From Sclerodactyla briareus (Eukaryota; Echinodermata; Holothuroidea; Dendrochirotida; Sclerodactylidae): 64,000 bases of DNA. The notes below the pieces were generated by a model. That model was given only the letters and a program-made list of their open reading frames with translations, ran no database searches and was not told the origin of the DNA. The position numbers were made by a program, and so were the translations under genes. The first letter of the stretch is position 1, and every line of letters begins with the position of its first letter. The stretch covers positions 146,510 through 210,509 of the forward strand of contig JAODTK010003776.1 in the NCBI GenBank assembly GCA_026419785.1, read 5' to 3'. Below are positions 53,811 through 64,000 of the stretch, in pieces.

Positions 53811-54040
53811 TCAAATCGGTTTGATTATAATGGTGATCGAGAGAGGAATTCAAGAAAGTTTGGGTGGGGTCAATGGGTTGTGGTCATTTTTTCAGAGAGA
53901 GGGTAACCATTAGTTTATAGGGGATGACCGAGTACAGTATTTTGGAATGTTCCATGTATCCCCGTGCATTGTATTTTTGCATAATGAGGTAAACCTCCTT
54001 TTGCTTTCTTTAAATATGAACATATATTCTATATATTAAT

Positions 54041-54090
<50 letters not shown>

Positions 54091-54590
54091 CTTATCTATA
54101 CTATATATATTATATATATTATAATATACTATCTATATATCTCTCTATCGATAACAATATTGTAACTTAGTGATGGAAGACTTTCGAAAAACTGAAAGAA
54201 ATCCTCCGATACCTCAGGACCCACCTCCTAAGCTTCCTTAAAAATAAGAGCCATAGAACAGGCAACAGACAACGGTTAGGAAACGACTTTAAAATGAGAT
54301 GTCCCGAGAGCTCTTGAAAGTGTAATATGTATGACCCATTTCACATATTCCGTCGAGTGGATTTTCAAAAAATATCCGAATAACGCGGACAATAAAGGTG
54401 ACTAGGCAACAACATAGCTCGTTCAAACCGAGACTTCTATTGCAGTTTGATATGTTACTATTCAATGCGATAATTCATGGTTCCAAATGACTAGTACTTA
54501 GACCCTGACGCGTTTACATTTCCGCGTATCTATAAGTTGTGCCGAACTAAAATAATGAGAAGTTACCCATTTTCCTTTTTCCTGTTTCCA
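53811..54590. repeat. spacer with (TA)n microsatellite at 54022-54150
   Basis: The tract at 54022-54150 is an imperfect TA repeat with CTATCTATA-like interruptions. The rest of the spacer has no recognised feature. Confidence 0.7.
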
Positions 54591-54599
54591 ATATCAGAG

Positions 54600-55290
54600 C
54601 ATGAAGTGGCGAGGGAAGCTGCTGGCTCTGACAACATCCAACCTAGTATTTCGAAACAAGTATTCCCTTATATTTTGACACATCAACCCATATTTTAACA
54701 AATTCACTGCAGTCTGGATTTCTAAAGATTGCTAAGGTTATTCAGGGATACGACAAAATTCCGCCTTTCCCCCGCCCAATTCAATAGGTTTTCCGGACTG
54801 ACCACTCCAAAGAACTGGCCCTCGCAGATTTAACTGATCACTTTTCAGGGGAGCGGGGGGGCAATGGAGAAAGATTATCTTCACATTGGTGTTTTCTTGG
54901 ATCTATCCAAAGCTGACACTATCGATCATGAAATACTATTACCAAACTCTCACTACGGTATACGAGAAGGTCACTTTCTGGCTACGCAGTTATTTACCAA
55001 ATAGGAAGCATTTCACTGTGTGAATCTGTGCAATCCTGAGGAACTCACGTCAGCTGTGTGATTCCCCCAGAGTCATATGGGACCGCTACTATTTATATAC
55101 TTAATGATGTAGTAAGGTGTAAGTAAATGCTCACTGTCATAATGCAGAGGATACGATGTATTTTCACGGGGCGAATCTGAGGTCTAATCAGGATAGTACT
55201 TTGGTTACTAATTATGTAAATTTCCAACTGTTTAACGCGAACAAACTATCCTGCAATTGCAAAACATTTTTATGGCTTTCACTTAGGAAC
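54600..55290 (+). mobile_element. LINE RT fragment joined to the Penelope array
   Basis: Plus-strand RT motifs in order: AAGSDNIQPSISKQ (54620-54660), ELALADLTDHFSG (about 54810-54850), KDYLHIGVFLDLSKADTIDH (54868-54930; motif A with the Phe codon of KAFDTIDH missing but the Asp kept), LLPKLSHYGIREGHFL (about 54938-54985), SYLPNRKHF (54993-55015), a GPLLFIYL-like block (55080-55105) and FNANKLS (about 55225-55250). This order is that of Jockey/CR1-type LINEs. Immediately after FNANKLS the sequence continues into the conserved 5' block of the Penelope-like units. Confidence 0.75.
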
Positions 55291-55560
55291 TACAGGGGGA
55301 AAACTGCTGAATGCGCCGCAGTCCCCTGTAGTTTCTTAAGGCGCACTTCTGGAAACTCAGCTACAATAATCCATTTTTACACACCACGCGCTATTTTTGG
55401 TTGCATAAATGGGGTCCCTCAGGGGATATGCGTATTATTTTAAATGAATATTTGTTTGAATAACGGTTTCACTTATTTTTTTTGTATTACATATTCCGCT
55501 GAAGAAGGAACCCCGAGTAGAGGTCTAATCTACGGATTAAATATTCCGTTGGTCAACAGT
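55215..55560 (+). mobile_element. first, short Penelope-like unit
   Basis: Starts like the two complete units: TTCCAACTG..TTAACGCGAACAAACTATC, ACATTTTTATGGCTTTCAC, then a hairpin block (CTG.GAATGCGCCGCAGTC CCCTGTAGTTTCT) and CTTCTGGAAACTC. After about 55395 it diverges into GGTTGCATAAATGGGGTCCCTCAGGGGAT, which encodes NGVPQG, a LINE RT motif. CTGAAGAAGGAACC at 55499 resembles the first hammerhead box, but no GAAA follows. It is a truncated or recombined unit. Confidence 0.65.
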
Positions 55561-55617
55561 ATCATTCTATATCGCACTATTAGTTTTTCAACGAACCCAT
55601 ACACGATTTCATCTCTC

Positions 55618-55735
55618 CTAATATATAAGATATATATTATTTATATATATAATATATATATATTATAATATATATATAATATATAGATATAATATATAAT
55701 ATATAATATATATATATATATTATCCTATATAACG
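55618..55735. repeat. (TA)n microsatellite
   Basis: Imperfect TA tract after the first short unit. Confidence 0.9.
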
Positions 55736-55860
55736 AGGCAAAAACTGTAAACAACAATGCGACGTAAATGATTAGCTGGATCTCGAAGCAGATCGAAAAG
55801 CGATTGAGCCAGGAAAAATGTTGAGTAAACAGCCGTAGTTCATATAATAGTATATATATA

Positions 55861-55900
<40 letters not shown>

Positions 55901-55924
55901 TATATATTTAGTTATTTTTTAGTA
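55736..55924. repeat. spacer ending in a (TA)n tract (55848-55915)
   Basis: About 110 bases of unrecognised sequence followed by a TA tract that borders the next Penelope-like unit. Confidence 0.8.
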
Positions 55925-57785
55925 CTTTGTGCGATATTAAATTCCACTGGTGCACGTCGAACAACTATCACGGAATATTGACAAGAACATTTTTATGGCT
56001 TTCACGTAGGACTCCGGAGACTGCGGATGCTGCCGATTCTCCTGTAGTTTCTAAGGCACTTCTGGAAACTCCTCGACAAATAGCCTTTTATTCCACCCAG
56101 GTTTTACTTCGCCCCAAAATTCACAGGATTGTCACCCCTTGCAGCCCCATCTTTCTGGCACGCGGCCCTGCTACAGAGAAAATTTCAATTCGTGGGCCTC
56201 CTGATTCAGCCCCTCGTCCGTCCTCCGTCTCACGTCAGGACAACCACAGACACGGCAGAGCAATGGCCACTAAAATGGCTACTTCGTTCGCCAACCTCTT
56301 CATGGGAAAATTTGAACGATGAAATTCCTCTCTGGCCAGGCCTGAAGGCCCTGGCTTCCGTTAATTGATGACATCTAATGATAATGGAACCCACTGCGAG
56401 AAAGACTTACCCTCGTTCTCGAACAAATCAACGCCATTGCCACCCATCTTCATTCACTGCCTAATTTTCAAGCGACAGGTCCACTTTCTTGAAACCACTG
56501 TGACGTTGGAAAACGGTCACTCAAACAGACTTGTTCACAAAACAACGGACGCACAATTTCCTACTCCCTAGCATTGTCACCCCCCCACTACACGCAGAAC
56601 ATTCCCACAGTCAGGCTCTTCGTCTGAACGCATTTGCTCCTCCATGCTGATTTCGAGTCCCGGTGCCAGCACTTCAAAACATCTCCAAAGAGGCAGTATT
56701 TCCGAGTCCAGTGAAGAGGCCATTGCAAAGGCTAGAAATACTCCGCGAATTGAAACTCTGACGACAAAACGCGTCTCCAACTCAAGAGTACCACTCGTCT
56801 GTGAATACATCCTGCCCTCCACCACCATTAACCACTCTTCTTCACAAGCATTTGCCCATCTTCAAAGTCAGGAACGCCTAAATCCGTTTTCCCGGAACCC
56901 CCCCGGTTGTTGCCTACGCAGACCTCGGAATCTGCCGTGTACATTCTAGTCAGGCCAAATTTTGGGAGCAGCCGAGCCGCAAACAAAACCGGCGGCAGCC
57001 TCCCCTGCCCATCCAACTGCAAACGTGCAACCTTTTCGATCGCACAACTTGTTTCAAAAGTTTCAACCTCCGCCTATTCGATTCACAGGATAATTGTTGC
57101 GTCCTCGAAGAACCTTGTCTACCTAATTTTACTGTAACCTCTGGCGATTCAGTCCATCGGGGAAACAAAAAACCCCTGAGGATCGATGACCCAACAACCG
57201 GTCACCAGCCATCCGAGACCCAAACAATTGAGCAGCCGGTTGCTAGCATTTCAACATGGTCAGTCACTCCATTGAAAACCTTAAGTGATTGGCATCGACC
57301 ATGCCCCAAATTGGTCCACTACATCCCCGCAAGCGAAAGAAAATTACGGTTGAACCTGAAACGACTACACCATTTGTCTGAACTATTCGGAACGACCCAC
57401 CATCACAAAAGCGATAAGGTACCACTCGGCACCCCTCCCTATTTGCCTATTGTCAATCACCAAGGCACAAATTGGCCTTCATTATATAATCCTTTGAGAT
57501 ATCTCCTGTCATCACTGAGGCGCAATTTGGCCTCTCCCGGGATAATCCCCACAGGGATTCTCCCTGTCAATCAGCGAAAACTAATTGCCTCACCCCACCA
57601 TTGGTCCTATGCCTATAAAGTCTCAACCTTCTTCTCTCGAGTGTATCACTTCTGTGGGCACTGCAACTGACGAAGGACTAGTAGTGTCCGAAAGGCTCTC
57701 ATCCAAAACATATCGCTGTTTTACTCCATTTTTCCTACTCAATACGATTTCGCATCTCTTCGAGATCCACCGATCATTTACGTAG
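55925..57785 (+). mobile_element. Penelope-like element unit 1, RT and GIY-YIG remnants
   Basis: Penelope-like retroelements encode an RT followed by a GIY-YIG endonuclease. Plus-strand motifs in order: LLRPKIH and ATEKIS (56105-56190; RT1-2, KIHKxGNP region), LIQPL.PS.SHV (56200-56235), directly followed by TKMATSFANLFMGKFE (56272-56320), IDD out of frame (56362-56380; the YIDD palm), EDLPSFLEQIN-like (56400-56430), VHFLETTVTLENG (56478-56515), AIAKARNTPRIETL (56720-56760), a Cys-rich C..C segment (56999-57020), NLVYLI and CNLCG.QYIGET (57110-57168; the GIY-YIG core), then C-terminal KHFNMV.HSIE (57250-57280). The palm part between SHV and TKM, with the motif A aspartate, is deleted. The unit ends with the hammerhead-like motif and a (TA)n tract. 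Broken throughout by indels. Confidence 0.85.
57667..57693 (+). ncRNA. hammerhead-ribozyme-like core of Penelope-like unit 1
   Basis: CTGACGA (57667-57673), stem II GGAC (57675-57678) with GTCC (57686-57689), then GAAA (57690-57693). This matches hammerhead boxes CUGANGA and GAAA. Penelope-like elements are known to carry hammerhead ribozymes in their terminal parts. The same spot in unit 2 (59748-59777) has CTTACGA and GTCCCGAAA, so the first box there is mutated. I could not place stem I and the cleavage site with confidence. Confidence 0.5.
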
Positions 57786-57823
57786 CAGTGTTGTTTCACG
57801 TGTTTTGCCTTTGTCTATAATTA

Positions 57824-57903
57824 GATTATATATATATATATATATTTTATATATATATATATAATATATATAATATCATATCTAAATATATATATATATA
57901 AGT
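57824..57903. repeat. (TA)n microsatellite between Penelope-like units
   Basis: TA tract with short interruptions (TTTTATATA, TCATATCTAAATA), separating unit 1 and unit 2. Confidence 0.95.
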
Positions 57904-59880
57904 ATACTTTGTGAGATTATGTAAATTTCCCACTGGTTGCAAACGCGAACAAACTATCACTGAATATTGACAAGAACATTTTTTAATGGCTTTCACGTTA
58001 GGAAACTCAGAGACTGCGGAATGCGCCTCAGGCTCCTGTAGTTTCTAAGGCCACTTCTGGAAACTCACGACAATAATCCTTTTATTCCCCACCAGGTTTT
58101 ACTTCCTCCCCAAAATTCACAAGGTTGGCAACCCCTGGCAGAGCCATCATTTCTGGCAACGTCACTGCTACAGAGAAAATCCCCAAATTCTGGACCTCCT
58201 GTTCACCCTCGTCCCGTCCCCTCCGTCTCACGTCAAGGACACCACAGAACACGGCAGAGAATGTGCACTAAAATGGCTCCTCGTCCTTCCGCCAACCTCT
58301 TCATGGGAAAACTTGAATAGAAATTCCTCTCTGGACGGCCCTGAGGCCCTGGCTCCGTTATATGAATGACACTTCATGAATGGACCACGGCGAAGAAAAA
58401 CTTACCTCGTGTCATCGACAAATCAACGCATTCCACCCTCTATCAAATTCACGGCAGAATTTTCAAGCGACAGAGTCCACTTTCCTGACAGAACACTGTG
58501 ACGTTGGAAACGGGTCACTCACAGACTTGTTCAACAAAAAAACCAACGGCAGCACAATTTCCTTTCCTACTCCCTAGCAGTTTGTCACCGCCACCCCACG
58601 TACAACGAAACATTCCCTACAGTCACCGCTCTTCGTCTGAACGCATTTGCTCCTCTCAGATGCTGATTTCGATCCCGTGCCAAGCCTTCTTTCAAAACAT
58701 CTCCAAAAGAAGCAGTATTTCCGGAGTTCCATGAAGAGGGGCCATTGAAAAGGCTAGAAATACTCCGCGAATTGAAACTCTTAACGTACAAAACTCGTCA
58801 ATCCACTCCAGAGTACCACTCGTCTGTGAATGCCATCCTGCCCTCCCACCATTAGCCACTCTCTTCCACAATTCATTTGCCATCTCTTCCAAGTCAGGAA
58901 CGCCTAAAATCCGTGTTCCGGAACCCTACGTTTGTTGCCTACGCAGACCTCGAATCTGCGTTACATTCTAGTCAACGCCAATTTTCGGAGGAGCAAGCCG
59001 AGCCGCAACAAACACCGGCGGGCAGCGCCCCTTCCCTCCACTGCACAACGTGCCAAATAACTTTTCGATCGCACAAACTTGTTTCAAAAGTTTCCAGACA
59101 TCCCTCATATATTCCAGTTCAGACTGATATGGATTGCGTCTCGAAGAACCTTGTCTACCTAAATTTAAGCTACTGTAACCTCTGCGGAGTTCAGTACATC
59201 GGGGAACCAAAAAACCACGCCTTAGGGATCGAATGACCTCAACACCGTTCGAACCCATCGATACCCAAAAAAATTGAGCAGCCGGTTGCTAAGCTTTTCA
59301 ACATGGTCTCACTCCATTGAAAACCTGGCTATGATTGGCAACGACCATGACCCAAATTGGTCCACTAATCCCTGCCGCAGAGCGAAAGAAATTACTGGGA
59401 ATTGAACCTGAAACGACTACAAACCATTTGGTCTGAAACTTTCGGAACGGCCACCATCACAAAAGATACTGGTAACCACTCGGCACCCCCCCCTCCCTAT
59501 TTTGCCTATTGTCAATACCAAAGGGCACAAATGTGCCTTCATTTAAGTATATCCTGTTGAGAAATATCCCTGTCATCTACTGAGGCGCGCCAATGGCCTC
59601 TCCCGGTATAAAAATCCCCCCCCCCCAAAGTGATTTCGCCCTGTCAATCAGCGAAACTAAATTACCTCAGCCTCCCCCCACCATTGTTCCTAGCCTATGA
59701 AATCTCAGCCGTCTTCTCTTCGAGTTATCACTTTCTGTGGTCACTGCACTTACGAAGGCTGTACATTGTCCCGAAAGCCTGCATCCAAAACATATCGCTG
59801 TTTTTAAAATACTCCATTTTTGCTAGCTCAATCGCTATTTTTGTCCATCTCATTCGAGATCCAGCCATTATTTAGGTAGC
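57904..59880 (+). mobile_element. Penelope-like element unit 2, RT and GIY-YIG remnants
   Basis: Same order as unit 1, in tandem. The 5' block is TACTTTGTGAGATTATGTAAATTTCC, AACGCGAACAAACTATCACTG and GACAAGAACATTTTTTAATGGC. Then follow PKIHKVGNPWQ-like (58110-58145), a SHVKDTTE block (58225-58250) directly joined to CTKMAP..SANLFMGKLE (58262-58318), YMND (58358-58372, where YIDD is expected), VHFPD (58468-58485), DADFDPVPS-like, AIEKARNTPRIETL (58740-58785), ALPPLATLFHNSFA (58840-58880), SLHCTTCQ (59035-59060) and NLVYLNLSYCNLCGVQYIGE (59150-59210), whose GIY-YIG core is in one frame. The RT palm deletion is at the same place as in unit 1. It ends in a mutated hammerhead-like box and (TA)n. 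Confidence 0.85.
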
Positions 59881-59919
59881 ATTGTTGTTTCACAACCGTT
59901 TTTTTGCCTTTGTCGGTTT

Positions 59920-60040
59920 TTCTATATATAAAATATATATATTAGATTTATATATATTATATTTATATCTATATAATAGTATATATATATATATATATAT
60001 GATATATATTATATTCAATATTCGTATGATATAATAATAT
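59920..60040. repeat. (TA)n microsatellite closing the Penelope array
   Basis: Imperfect TA tract with AATATTCGTATGATATAATAATA at its right edge. The array ends here. Confidence 0.9.
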
Positions 60041-63000
60041 CCTGTCGCGATACCTCTGTTGCCTTCGTGATCGCCGTTCTAACCTCTGCGAACGGTCAAA
60101 AAAACCTAGGCTTCACATTATATGTGACTGAAATTACGTAACTGTCCACAACACTGCACAATATACCCTCGGCTCAGGACGTGGGAGCGAAGGCCAACCC
60201 ACAAAAACTGCATATCAAAATATTTGTAACATACGTATAGCCTGACCATCTATTTCGCTAAAAGGACCGCGCAATGTTCGCTCGCGTAGTACTAATTAAA
60301 GTGCCACAGCCCCTATTGACGACGGACCAGAATTTTTCAACAATTTTGGGGATTCCATAAAAACCGGTGTGCACAGCATTTTTGGAAGCACATTTTTACA
60401 TTCACTTGTGTTTCACCTGAGAGCAGTTTCTCCCATTATTCTCCCGGATTATGGTCACTTTCGCTACTCCGCATCGATATCAATTACCTCCTGTCCTCAG
60501 ATCTCGTGATGTTGCACTGAAAATGAGCCCATAATATTATTTGGGGGTACATCTGCTGCTTTGTGGAGGTGAATGCGGATATACTTTCTTGGAAGCGAGT
60601 CAAGTCAATTACAACATACGAAATTTCATCGAAATTGTCCCTTTTGGCTGTTTTGAAAACTCATGGACTAAAATAGGCCCTCTGTTATTGTCGTCGAAAA
60701 ATTGAGTCCGAAAATACCATGCGAAAAACAGCTCCTACTAGCTCAAATTCGACATGGTCATGGTACATCGCATTGCACATCGTTGGAGTGGGTAGACCTC
60801 TGCTTCCACAGCAATGTATGTCGATTCAAGGTAAAACTTCTGAAGGTGCCTGGGTTGCTGATAACGGACCCAATTAGTGTGTAAGTCATGGGTAGCAATC
60901 CTCGTGTGCTACCTGATAATGGGTTTTGCCCTAACCTGGTTCCGCATGCCACCTGACTGTACTGGCTGAATTAGTGGGCAGGATATTTTGGCAACCTTTC
61001 TAGTTAGATGCTCCATTTTGTGTTAAAGTTCTTGATTATAGGCGATTGATGCGGTAATGCCAGCCAGGGCTGAAATGTGAAGCTTGCGTAATGCCACAAC
61101 GAGACAAGAGACTCCTTGAATCATGGGCGTCCACTCCATCGAAACTGAATTCAAATAGAGCAGATCACGTTATTGTTATTACTCGCTATGTGAACACGCT
61201 AGATTTGTAAGAACTTTGCCTGTTAATGCATTTCAGGGGCAAAGTCGCGGACGCTATGGCGATTCGTAGAATTGGAAGGCCTCACTCTTCTAAGAAATTC
61301 GGACTTTGATTGACCAAACCTCTAGGTTGTTTGCATTAGTCAGCAATAAAATTCTGAATGCAGCCTCGCGTAACCCTTGGCTCGCAGTGAAATGGCTCAC
61401 TCAATTGATCCTTGCCCTGCAAATTGTTATTTGGGGTATAACTCTTCTATTCGAAAATTTGCGGTAAATTGTAAATGTTAATTAAGGTTTTGAAAACGTG
61501 AATGAAATTTATGCCGATGCATGCGGTCAGCTATAACTAAAGGTAAATCGTTTTTGAAGAAAATACCACGATTCTACATCTTTATGTTTATATATTGAGT
61601 CAGCTATAAATCGAGCTCTCTCAAACGTTTAAAAAAATACAGTTTTCACACAGAAACGGTGAAAAAAAATGCATGCCCGCTTCCTTTGGTGAACCGGCCG
61701 TGAGAAAAAATCAACACATAAGAACCGATAGCAAAAACTGGTCAAGGAATTGGAATTCCATGTGAACGTATTTCTTTAAAGTATTTTACCACTAGAATTT
61801 TACATCAGCTGGCTTTTTTTGGAGTACGTCACACAGCCTCTCTGCTTCACAGCAGCGGAAGCGTAGTAATTTATTCGTCTTAATATAGTGCTACAGGGCG
61901 AAACACTATACTAACATCGTCATGCATGCGTGTGACTATTCTTACAACATAGCATGATGCGTGTTATTGCGGTGCCCTTCTCTTTTTACCGCATACGGAT
62001 GTTCTTCGCCTGCAAACTCTAACAATTATTGCTTACTTACATTTACTTCTCATTAGGCCATCTGTTGACAATGCACTCGAAGAAACTTGACACGGTCTTT
62101 GAAAAGACGTACAAAGCATTACACGCTATTCACCAATCCCATCCCTTACATAAAAGACAGGCTTTACCGAATCGGATCAGCTTTCGTTGAGGAGGGACTC
62201 AAGTTGTCTCGTCAACTGGGTCCTGGAACGGTTAGCATGTTACCAGATATCGTTAGGCCTGAGCGAGTAATCATTGCGTATCATGAGGGTGAAAACCGGA
62301 TATGGGAAAGTCGACGTTGACCTTAAGTTAGCCTTTGAAATGAGTGTAGGAGTGGAGGATTCGCCTCTTCGGGACGTCAGTATACTTATTTTTCTTCGAT
62401 TGCGTCAGCAGGGGTGTACATCCATATTAGTGCGATCAATTGGTATCTGGCTCTCAGAGACAAGGTCGAAGTGAGTGATATTAGAGCAGTCTGGCAAGCT
62501 GTCCTTCTGTCATGATAATTCTGGATGGAATAATGCCGAATTCCAGACAGATATTCAGGAAGTGACATCCAACAAATCGTCATGGGAAAAATGTTCAAGA
62601 TAAAGATGTATCCTGACAACAAGGTACTTCCAGAACATACATCGATCTAGTAGGAGTTCAACAAGCTTACGGGATTTCGCTGACCGCCGCTCGGCGATGG
62701 AATACATCCGTAAGCAGTAGTAGGGGCAATGCCTGACGACGAGCCGTGGAGATGTCGAACAGAAACCTGGGAGGATAACCCAATCCTTTCTGATCTCTGT
62801 GACGTCCCAATTTTTGTCCATGTTTGCCCACATGGCTCATGAGAAGCAAGACTTCCGAATTTTAAATCGGTAACGGCTTTTTTCCGTTACATGATCCTGC
62901 TTTCTCAATCGTTTGCCATACTAAAATGGGTATACCTTGGCAGATAAGATGAGCCCGTTCGCCAATGACCATGTCTGTTGAACGCGCATTGCTTTTGAGG

Positions 63001-64000
63001 GACTGAGCAAGGAGCATCAGCAAAATTTCGTGGAGGCGGAGGGATACGACCGATGGCAATTAGGTTCTCAGTGTGGACTATTAGGTGCGCATTTGCATTT
63101 CTACTCAGAGAAGACGCCGTAGCAGACGGGGTAGAGGTAGGTTTACCATAAAATATTCGGCGAGTGGTACGCTGCTCATCAGCTTGCGAAGTGTTTAACA
63201 GAGGCAGACGAATCCAACACTGATATGCTTGGACATAGATCCATCTGACCTACAGTATCTATATCGATTTGCTTGTGTTCTGATTAAGGTCCAGTAAAAG
63301 GCTGATTGAATATCTGCAAGGGACTACAAGGTGGAGAGGCATCACTATCCTCTGTCGTCTTGAGCAGCATGCTTAATCTTGACGAATGCCTGGGCACAAA
63401 ATCAATGATCTATGCAGTAAGACACTGAAGATAGGGAAATATGACACCAAGCTGCTGCAGCGGTCCACTCTTAAGCTAATGGAGATTGCAGGTAGCCATG
63501 GTGTGAGTACAATGTTATGTTTATAAGTTTATTGCCGCATGTAGTCCGGTAGGTACAGTAGGCAAATAATCCCCACTCAATTCCCTTCCTCAAGCAATGT
63601 ATAGTGTAGCCCCATCAGTTTCCGCTACTTTAACATGGAGTTTATTTGGGCCCCGAAAACGTAGCGCATTAACACGTGATTTTATTTGGGGTGAAGATCA
63701 CATGCTGCATTTTTTTCAGTTACACTTTCCTATTGTTCTGACATAATGACGAATCGTGTATCTTCACCCCATGTCTTCAACCCATCGACCTCTATACCTG
63801 ATCAAGTTCTTTTTCACAAGGATCAGTAGAAACGATCCAGTACTACCACGCTGTAGGAAAAATGTCATTATTAATTATACTTTTCATTACTTAAATACAA
63901 CCCAAGACAACAGATTATGCGGTTTTTCTTAATAGAAGGTATAGATAGATAGTATGCATCCGTCAATATTTAAGAGGGGGACTATACTTGAAGATATTCA
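60041..64000. other. about 4 kb with no gene recognised
   Basis: No RT, endonuclease, transposase or host protein recognised. Overlapping frames at 62087-62850 on both strands are short and resemble nothing known to me. No repeat longer than simple A/T runs seen. Confidence 0.35.

Follow-up and report, generated by a model that had tools for sequence, protein, structure and literature searches.

A LINE reverse-transcriptase block repeated at the 5' edge of tandem Penelope-like units near a contig end of Sclerodactyla briareus, probably joined once and then copied

Tandem arrays are expected of Penelope-like elements (PLEs), and an array in Sclerodactyla briareus raises the question of how a piece of a LINE reverse transcriptase (RT) came to stand at the repeated 5' edge of such units. 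The window, that is, the whole stretch of 64,000 nucleotides that was analysed, is the final 64 kb of contig C2320 in a 319-Mb assembly of 3171 contigs. The array lies 4-9 kb from the contig end, and the contig stops about 4 kb past it. Self-comparison reveals a long direct repeat of about 2 kb, in which 55832-57906 matches 57807-60006 at 80% identity with 245 gap columns. A short block, 55194-55386, resembles the start of both long units at 76-82% (55211-55386 against 57916-58094 at 82%; 55194-55382 against 55920-56096 at 76%). The initial annotation had recognized three unit starts with a shared 5' block. These starts are correct to about 20 bases and the block is repeated, but the first start does not open an equivalent unit. 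Composite units number only two (55.91-57.90 and 57.90-60.01 kb) and not three. Unit 1 (55.20-55.73 kb), beyond about 55386, belongs to another family, PLE-B, and is not a shorter version of units 2 and 3, which have PLE-A bodies. The features of the array, in window positions, are the following.

54565..55284, + strand: LINE reverse-transcriptase fragment, the apparent source of the repeated block, broken at about 55284; relatives on nine other contigs at 63-83% local identity
55198..55284, + strand: LINE portion of the repeated block, first copy (FNANKLS...), placed by self-comparison and by comparison with LINE copies
55285..55315, - strand: short inverted PLE-B piece that makes up a palindrome together with the start of the direct PLE-B; its reverse complement aligns to the CGCATTCCGCAGTCTCCTGTAGTTTC region of PLE-B copies
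55316..55620, + strand: 3' part of PLE-B, the second Penelope-like family; 12 further genome copies at 76-88% identity (L014 across 83 bases only)
55621..55733, no strand: (TA)n tract
55734..55833, - strand: inverted final ~100 bp of PLE-A, starting near CGGCTGTTT and flanked by two (TA)n tracts; 55625-55827 pairs in inverted orientation with 59810-60014 at 76%, TA included
55842..55907, no strand: (TA)n tract ahead of unit 2
55910..56094, + strand: head of unit 2, comprising LINE block, inverted PLE-B and the first ~64 bp of PLE-B; edges approximate
56095..57826, + strand: PLE-A body of unit 2, 5'-truncated, with an internal deletion at ~56250
57667..57693, + strand: hammerhead-type core of PLE-A, CTGACGA-stem II-GAAA, the sole match to the core pattern in 54000-60500
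57827..57904, no strand: (TA)n tract separating units 2 and 3
57905..58088, + strand: head of unit 3, comprising LINE from 57905 to ~57998, inverted PLE-B to 58025 and PLE-B at 58026-58088
58089..59922, + strand: PLE-A body of unit 3, beginning at RFYFLPKIHK, with an internal deletion at 58249/58250
59923..60014, no strand: (TA)n tract at the end of unit 3

Each composite unit consists of about 90 bp of LINE, about 27 bp of inverted PLE-B, about 64 bp of PLE-B and a 5'-truncated PLE-A. More specifically, units 2 and 3 carry a copy of the ~185-bp middle of unit 1, set between (TA)n and the truncated PLE-A. Unit 1 alone shows a leftward extension of the LINE and a rightward extension of PLE-B, and it is therefore the likely source of the copied piece. 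Both the PLE-B/PLE-A junction and the internal deletion of PLE-A are common to units 2 and 3.

At each of the three places, the stretch coding for FNANKLSLNIDK derives from a LINE reverse transcriptase and is cut short at nearly the same base. Compared with four other genomic LINE copies, the block gave best local E values of 3e-13 in unit 1, 1e-10 in unit 2 and 7e-15 in unit 3, and the LINE homology ends within a few bases of one place in all three blocks. When the block of unit 2 or unit 3 was letter-shuffled 500 times, the real LINE score was never reached. These matches and shuffles bear out the LINE origin proposed for the block. A stop-free piece of one LINE copy, L057, matches the Pfam RVT_1 model with an E value of 7.8e-9, over the cut-off, and from its motif text, which resembles CR1/Jockey-like elements, the LINE may belong to that clade. 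The description of the array start as the natural end of the LINE proved wrong. All four of the other copies checked continue beyond the equivalent of 55284, about 700-900 bp of the continuation being common to L056, L058 and L060 and about 210 bp being present in L057; position 55284 is therefore a break. In L057, about 45 bp downstream of the LINE match are apparently repeated some 200 bp further on. The 3' part of the LINE that is missing here was sought at 60040-64000, with no convincing match. When a second haplotype or an empty site was sought with LINE and right-flank queries, the best other places stood at 77% and 82%, none of them close.

The distribution of the LINE/Penelope junction is revealing of its history. 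A junction query (57905-58110) reached 13 places in the 319-Mb assembly, counts in these genome searches being lower bounds since very common words were skipped, and the LINE part was present in only three of them, all within the array. In addition, 46 other PLE loci, some of them overlapping, gave no match to a LINE probe. The block is thus foreign to the Penelope family as far as searched. Because the junction was found only at the array, it probably arose once and was then copied, as had been proposed, and the internal deletion common to units 2 and 3 agrees with this history.

Between the LINE and the Penelope sequence, the units carry an inverted PLE-B piece of 27-31 bp. The hairpin score was reached by 2 of 2000 shuffles for unit 1, by 4 of 2000 for unit 3 and by 166 of 2000 for unit 2; the hairpin of unit 2 alone is not significant, and its palindrome therefore rests on alignment with the sister units. 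Palindromic inverted starts of Penelope elements are read as self-priming in a published account (PMC3846280). Upstream of the 3' part of PLE-B, other copies of this family contain a conserved stretch and, in copy L017, a GIY-YIG domain (Pfam E value 1.2e-6; 29.1 bits, exceeding the cut-off of 22.6). The hammerhead-like core near 55499 in the PLE-B of unit 1 is damaged; a CTGAAGA..GGTCGAAA core is present in several other copies.

The classification of PLE-A as a putative Penelope-like family rests on motif texts, a GIY-YIG match below threshold, a tandem arrangement and a hammerhead-type core. The texts FYFLPKIHK and SANLFMG occur in unit 3 and FANLFMG in unit 2, while the 29 other loci contain YIDDIF in 10 cases, [S/F]ANLFMG in 8, FYFLPKIHK in 1 and LDVSSLYTN in 1. 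FYFLPKIHK, SANLFMG/FANLFMG, YIDDIF and LDVSSLYTN are taken here to be PLE-type RT motifs. None of the PLE-A pieces tried reached the Pfam RT model. QYIGE is found in unit 3 and in 8 of the 29 other loci, and a piece of L023 matches Pfam GIY-YIG at an E value of 0.0018 and 19.0 bits, below the cut-off of 22.6. The piece 58856-59233 yielded no GIY-YIG match in Pfam, its sub-threshold matches being led by zinc-finger models (E value 0.00048), and no match in a search of solved structures. A CTGANGA-stem-CGAAA pattern is present in 26 of 46 PLE-A/PLE-B loci (some overlap, and a few of the matches fall elsewhere in the locus), compared with 3 when the loci are letter-shuffled; no Rfam ribozyme or hammerhead match was obtained in 54000-60500 or in 12 loci. 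The tandem arrangement of PLE-A is seen on contig C2333, with a main period of about 3.16 kb. This contig measures 25.3 kb (loci L052-L054), and about half of it, from 7.8 to 20.9 kb, is a head-to-tail PLE-A array.

The PLE-A body of unit 3 is 77-82% identical to the 29 other loci, which come from a search in which 40 of 549 candidates were scored and from which unit 2 itself is absent, so that the list is incomplete. Both flanks of the internal deletion could be placed in 16 loci, of which four belong to contig C2333, and all 16 have 214-252 extra bases at that site. Read by eye in L023, the segment missing from units 2 and 3 contains LDVSSLYTN, which we take to be RT motif A and which is whole and in frame in 1 of the 29 loci. 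Judging from the assembled letters, units 2 and 3 cannot encode a working reverse transcriptase, because the deletion that they share removes this presumed motif A. As assembled, both are also full of stops and frameshifts, and no function is implied. Spliced introns were considered for the missing 214-252 bp and for the PLE-B/PLE-A join and were rejected: the missing segment begins ACTTCATC, finishes ..GCAGGTCC and reads as RT motif A in L023. The intron reading is further countered by the stretch before 58094, which looks coding in other copies.

The (TA)n that was said to close each unit is indeed present between and after the units, but its reading as a special closing signal is not borne out, since the PLE-A copies examined usually lie in A+T-rich surroundings. 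Among the 29 loci, with flanks read over as many as 60 bases and without a background control, at least 75% A+T was counted at 17 of 22 readable left edges and 19 of 26 readable right edges. A (TA)n border therefore looks normal in this family, in keeping with the AT-rich target cleavage published for PLEs (PMC11167929). Two further loci contain tandem 3' ends of PLE-A (the last ~110 bp) with (TA)n between them and a near-identical truncated start, three such ends in L008 (1142-2134) and two in L007 (1007-1819). These loci suggest either that duplication between (TA)n tracts recurs in the assembly or that they have an assembly weakness in common; because such a problem could also affect the array, the support that they lend is not fully independent. 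A long target-site duplication of the simple kind was also considered and rejected, as the block stands ahead of each PLE-A but is not seen again between the last (TA)n and 60500.

The similarity of the two composite units must be judged against the noise of the sequence. Over 1468 majority positions, unit 2 deviates 222 times (141 substitutions, 19 insertions and 62 deletions) and unit 3 269 times (154 substitutions, 82 insertions and 33 deletions). The two units have 30 variants in common; among 190 pairs of other copies the median is 10 and the maximum 26, and when unit 2 or unit 3 is paired with another copy (40 pairs) the median is 11 and the maximum 21. The common variants weakly favour a common descent of units 2 and 3; the junctions and the deletion that both units carry speak for it more strongly. 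Transitions and transversions among isolated substitutions stand at 6:17 in unit 2 and 1:14 in unit 3, and at 8:4 in the cleanest copy, L023; a separate count gave 147:404 for 20 other copies pooled. In the case of actin, 14 of 16 matches are without a stop. At two actin loci (C1260, ~170.3-170.8 kb; C2792, ~267.5-267.9 kb) the match falls into neighbouring pieces that differ in frame, and indel errors are therefore not confined to repeats. Since repeat copies carry error-like changes, the identity between the units probably understates their true similarity, and the differences appear to be mostly uncorrected read error, so that the duplication could be recent, or an assembly artefact near the contig end. 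The true divergence of units 2 and 3 is probably well below 20% and perhaps near zero. Dating of the units by identity was dropped, their differences being mostly error-like. Ages based on repeat divergence in this assembly would likewise be inflated, given the error-like substitutions and indels in repeats and the frame breaks in two actin loci.

From this anatomy we infer an order of events and a mechanism to which we give slightly better than even chances: retroelements inserted one into another, after which a copying accident nearby and then a tandem duplication left a one-off composite. The order rests on unit 1, in which both the LINE and PLE-B are longer. A 5'-truncated PLE-B with a self-primed palindromic start would have inserted into LINE reverse-transcriptase sequence at about 55284. 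A 5'-truncated PLE-A, the usual flanks of which are A+T-rich and mostly (TA)n, may then have inserted in the adjoining (TA)n, and its 5' end would have been attached to a newly made copy, about 185 bp long, of the neighbouring LINE/PLE-B, with homology slight or absent at both ends of that copy. The join could have been made when the PLE reverse transcriptase switched templates, or when a gap was repaired from adjacent DNA under the guidance of microhomology. Microhomology at the joins, judged by eye on junction bases blurred by error, amounts to 0-4 bases at most; the two routes predict the same product. It is a rather doubtful proposition that the PLE reverse transcriptase itself jumped from PLE-A RNA to a LINE/PLE-B read-through transcript or DNA, so sealing its own 5' end with the copied piece, and that the chimera then multiplied in tandem; if true, the locus would directly record a PLE switching template to a retroelement of a different class. 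Finally, a head-to-tail duplication of the composite, with its motif-A deletion, would have followed, for which unequal exchange or slippage at its two (TA)n edges is the probable route. Against this reading stand the nearby contig end, the failure to find an empty site or a close second copy of the LINE or right flank, and the 30 common variants, which are only just above the best unrelated pair (26).

Three other histories compete with nested insertion and local copying. Rearrangement at the DNA level might by itself have produced the array, a duplication of LINE, PLE-B, TA and PLE-A being followed by a deletion that joined PLE-B to PLE-A in one of the duplicates and then by a second duplication of that copy, with no reverse transcription in the LINE/PLE-A join. 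The left edge of the LINE directly abuts (TA)n in units 2 and 3, tandem PLE-A ends are flanked by (TA)n at other loci, and the unit already contains an internal deletion, all of which would fit such a course. It nevertheless requires an extra duplication and a deletion with unseen intermediates, and neither unit contains the PLE-B tail or any of the LINE sequence that precedes about 55198; on the whole we regard it as possible but unlikely. It is a little less probable still that units 2 and 3 are a single genomic unit read twice and misjoined at (TA)n, in which case the composite junction could nonetheless be real. The nearby contig end would be in keeping with such a misjoin, as would the opposite lean of the indels in the two units (62 deletions to 19 insertions against 33 to 82), their transversion-heavy isolated substitutions, which look mostly like error, and the reach of indel errors into genes, where two actin loci are split. 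However, many other copies, several of them in long contigs, are similarly noisy, so that noise alone is no sign of a misjoin, and a PLE tandem array is present on contig C2333 as well. The identical head ahead of both units could also suggest a chimeric PLE subfamily in which the LINE head is a lasting part and moves as a unit. This history is highly improbable, as the head occurs at no other place in the assembly search and the units are without RT motif A.

Nested insertion with local copying has published counterparts for most of its ingredients. As described in PMC3846280, Pen2_Av of Adineta vaga and related Penelope elements include a partial tandem PLE within a non-LTR retrotransposon with a microhomology 5' junction inside the LINE, a palindrome at the 5' end of the pLTR, a microhomology-mediated internal deletion in a derivative, and host DNA captured in Pen1. 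The present locus is similar in its PLE and LINE insertion, possible 5' microhomology, palindrome, internal deletion and captured DNA. It differs in that the captured spacer of Adineta vaga, as described there, precedes the 3' pLTR and varies between copies (PMC3846280), whereas here a single LINE/PLE-B piece heads a truncated PLE at the 5' edge and recurs together with it. Likewise, the Poseidon elements of Anolis (PAc) resemble this array (PMC11167929) by their tandem units and AT-rich target cleavage and, putatively, by their hammerhead motif and RT plus GIY-YIG; their tandem consists of pLTR and ORF units, in contrast to the truncated composites split by (TA)n found here. The array on contig C2333 is of the same PLE-A family and also runs head to tail, but it has its period of ~3.16 kb, no uninterrupted A/T run of at least 20 between units, no match to the LINE probe, and the deleted segment in place.

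A limited literature search, which is not proof of absence, pointed to no PLE array in which every unit repeats a block of LINE. Published Penelope elements already provide examples of palindromes, junctions formed at microhomology, insertions into LINEs and capture of flanking DNA. The composite is real, but it is made of known ingredients, is broken, was found once and lies near a noisy contig end. Little is known of how PLEs complete their 5' ends and form tandem arrays. A composite that can be traced to two neighbours at its 5' edge offers a small natural record of the 5'-end step, in a single broken and error-ridden locus. Further along in the window, 60520-60915 is a piece of another dispersed repeat, with 39 other places among the 40 of 277 candidates that were scored.
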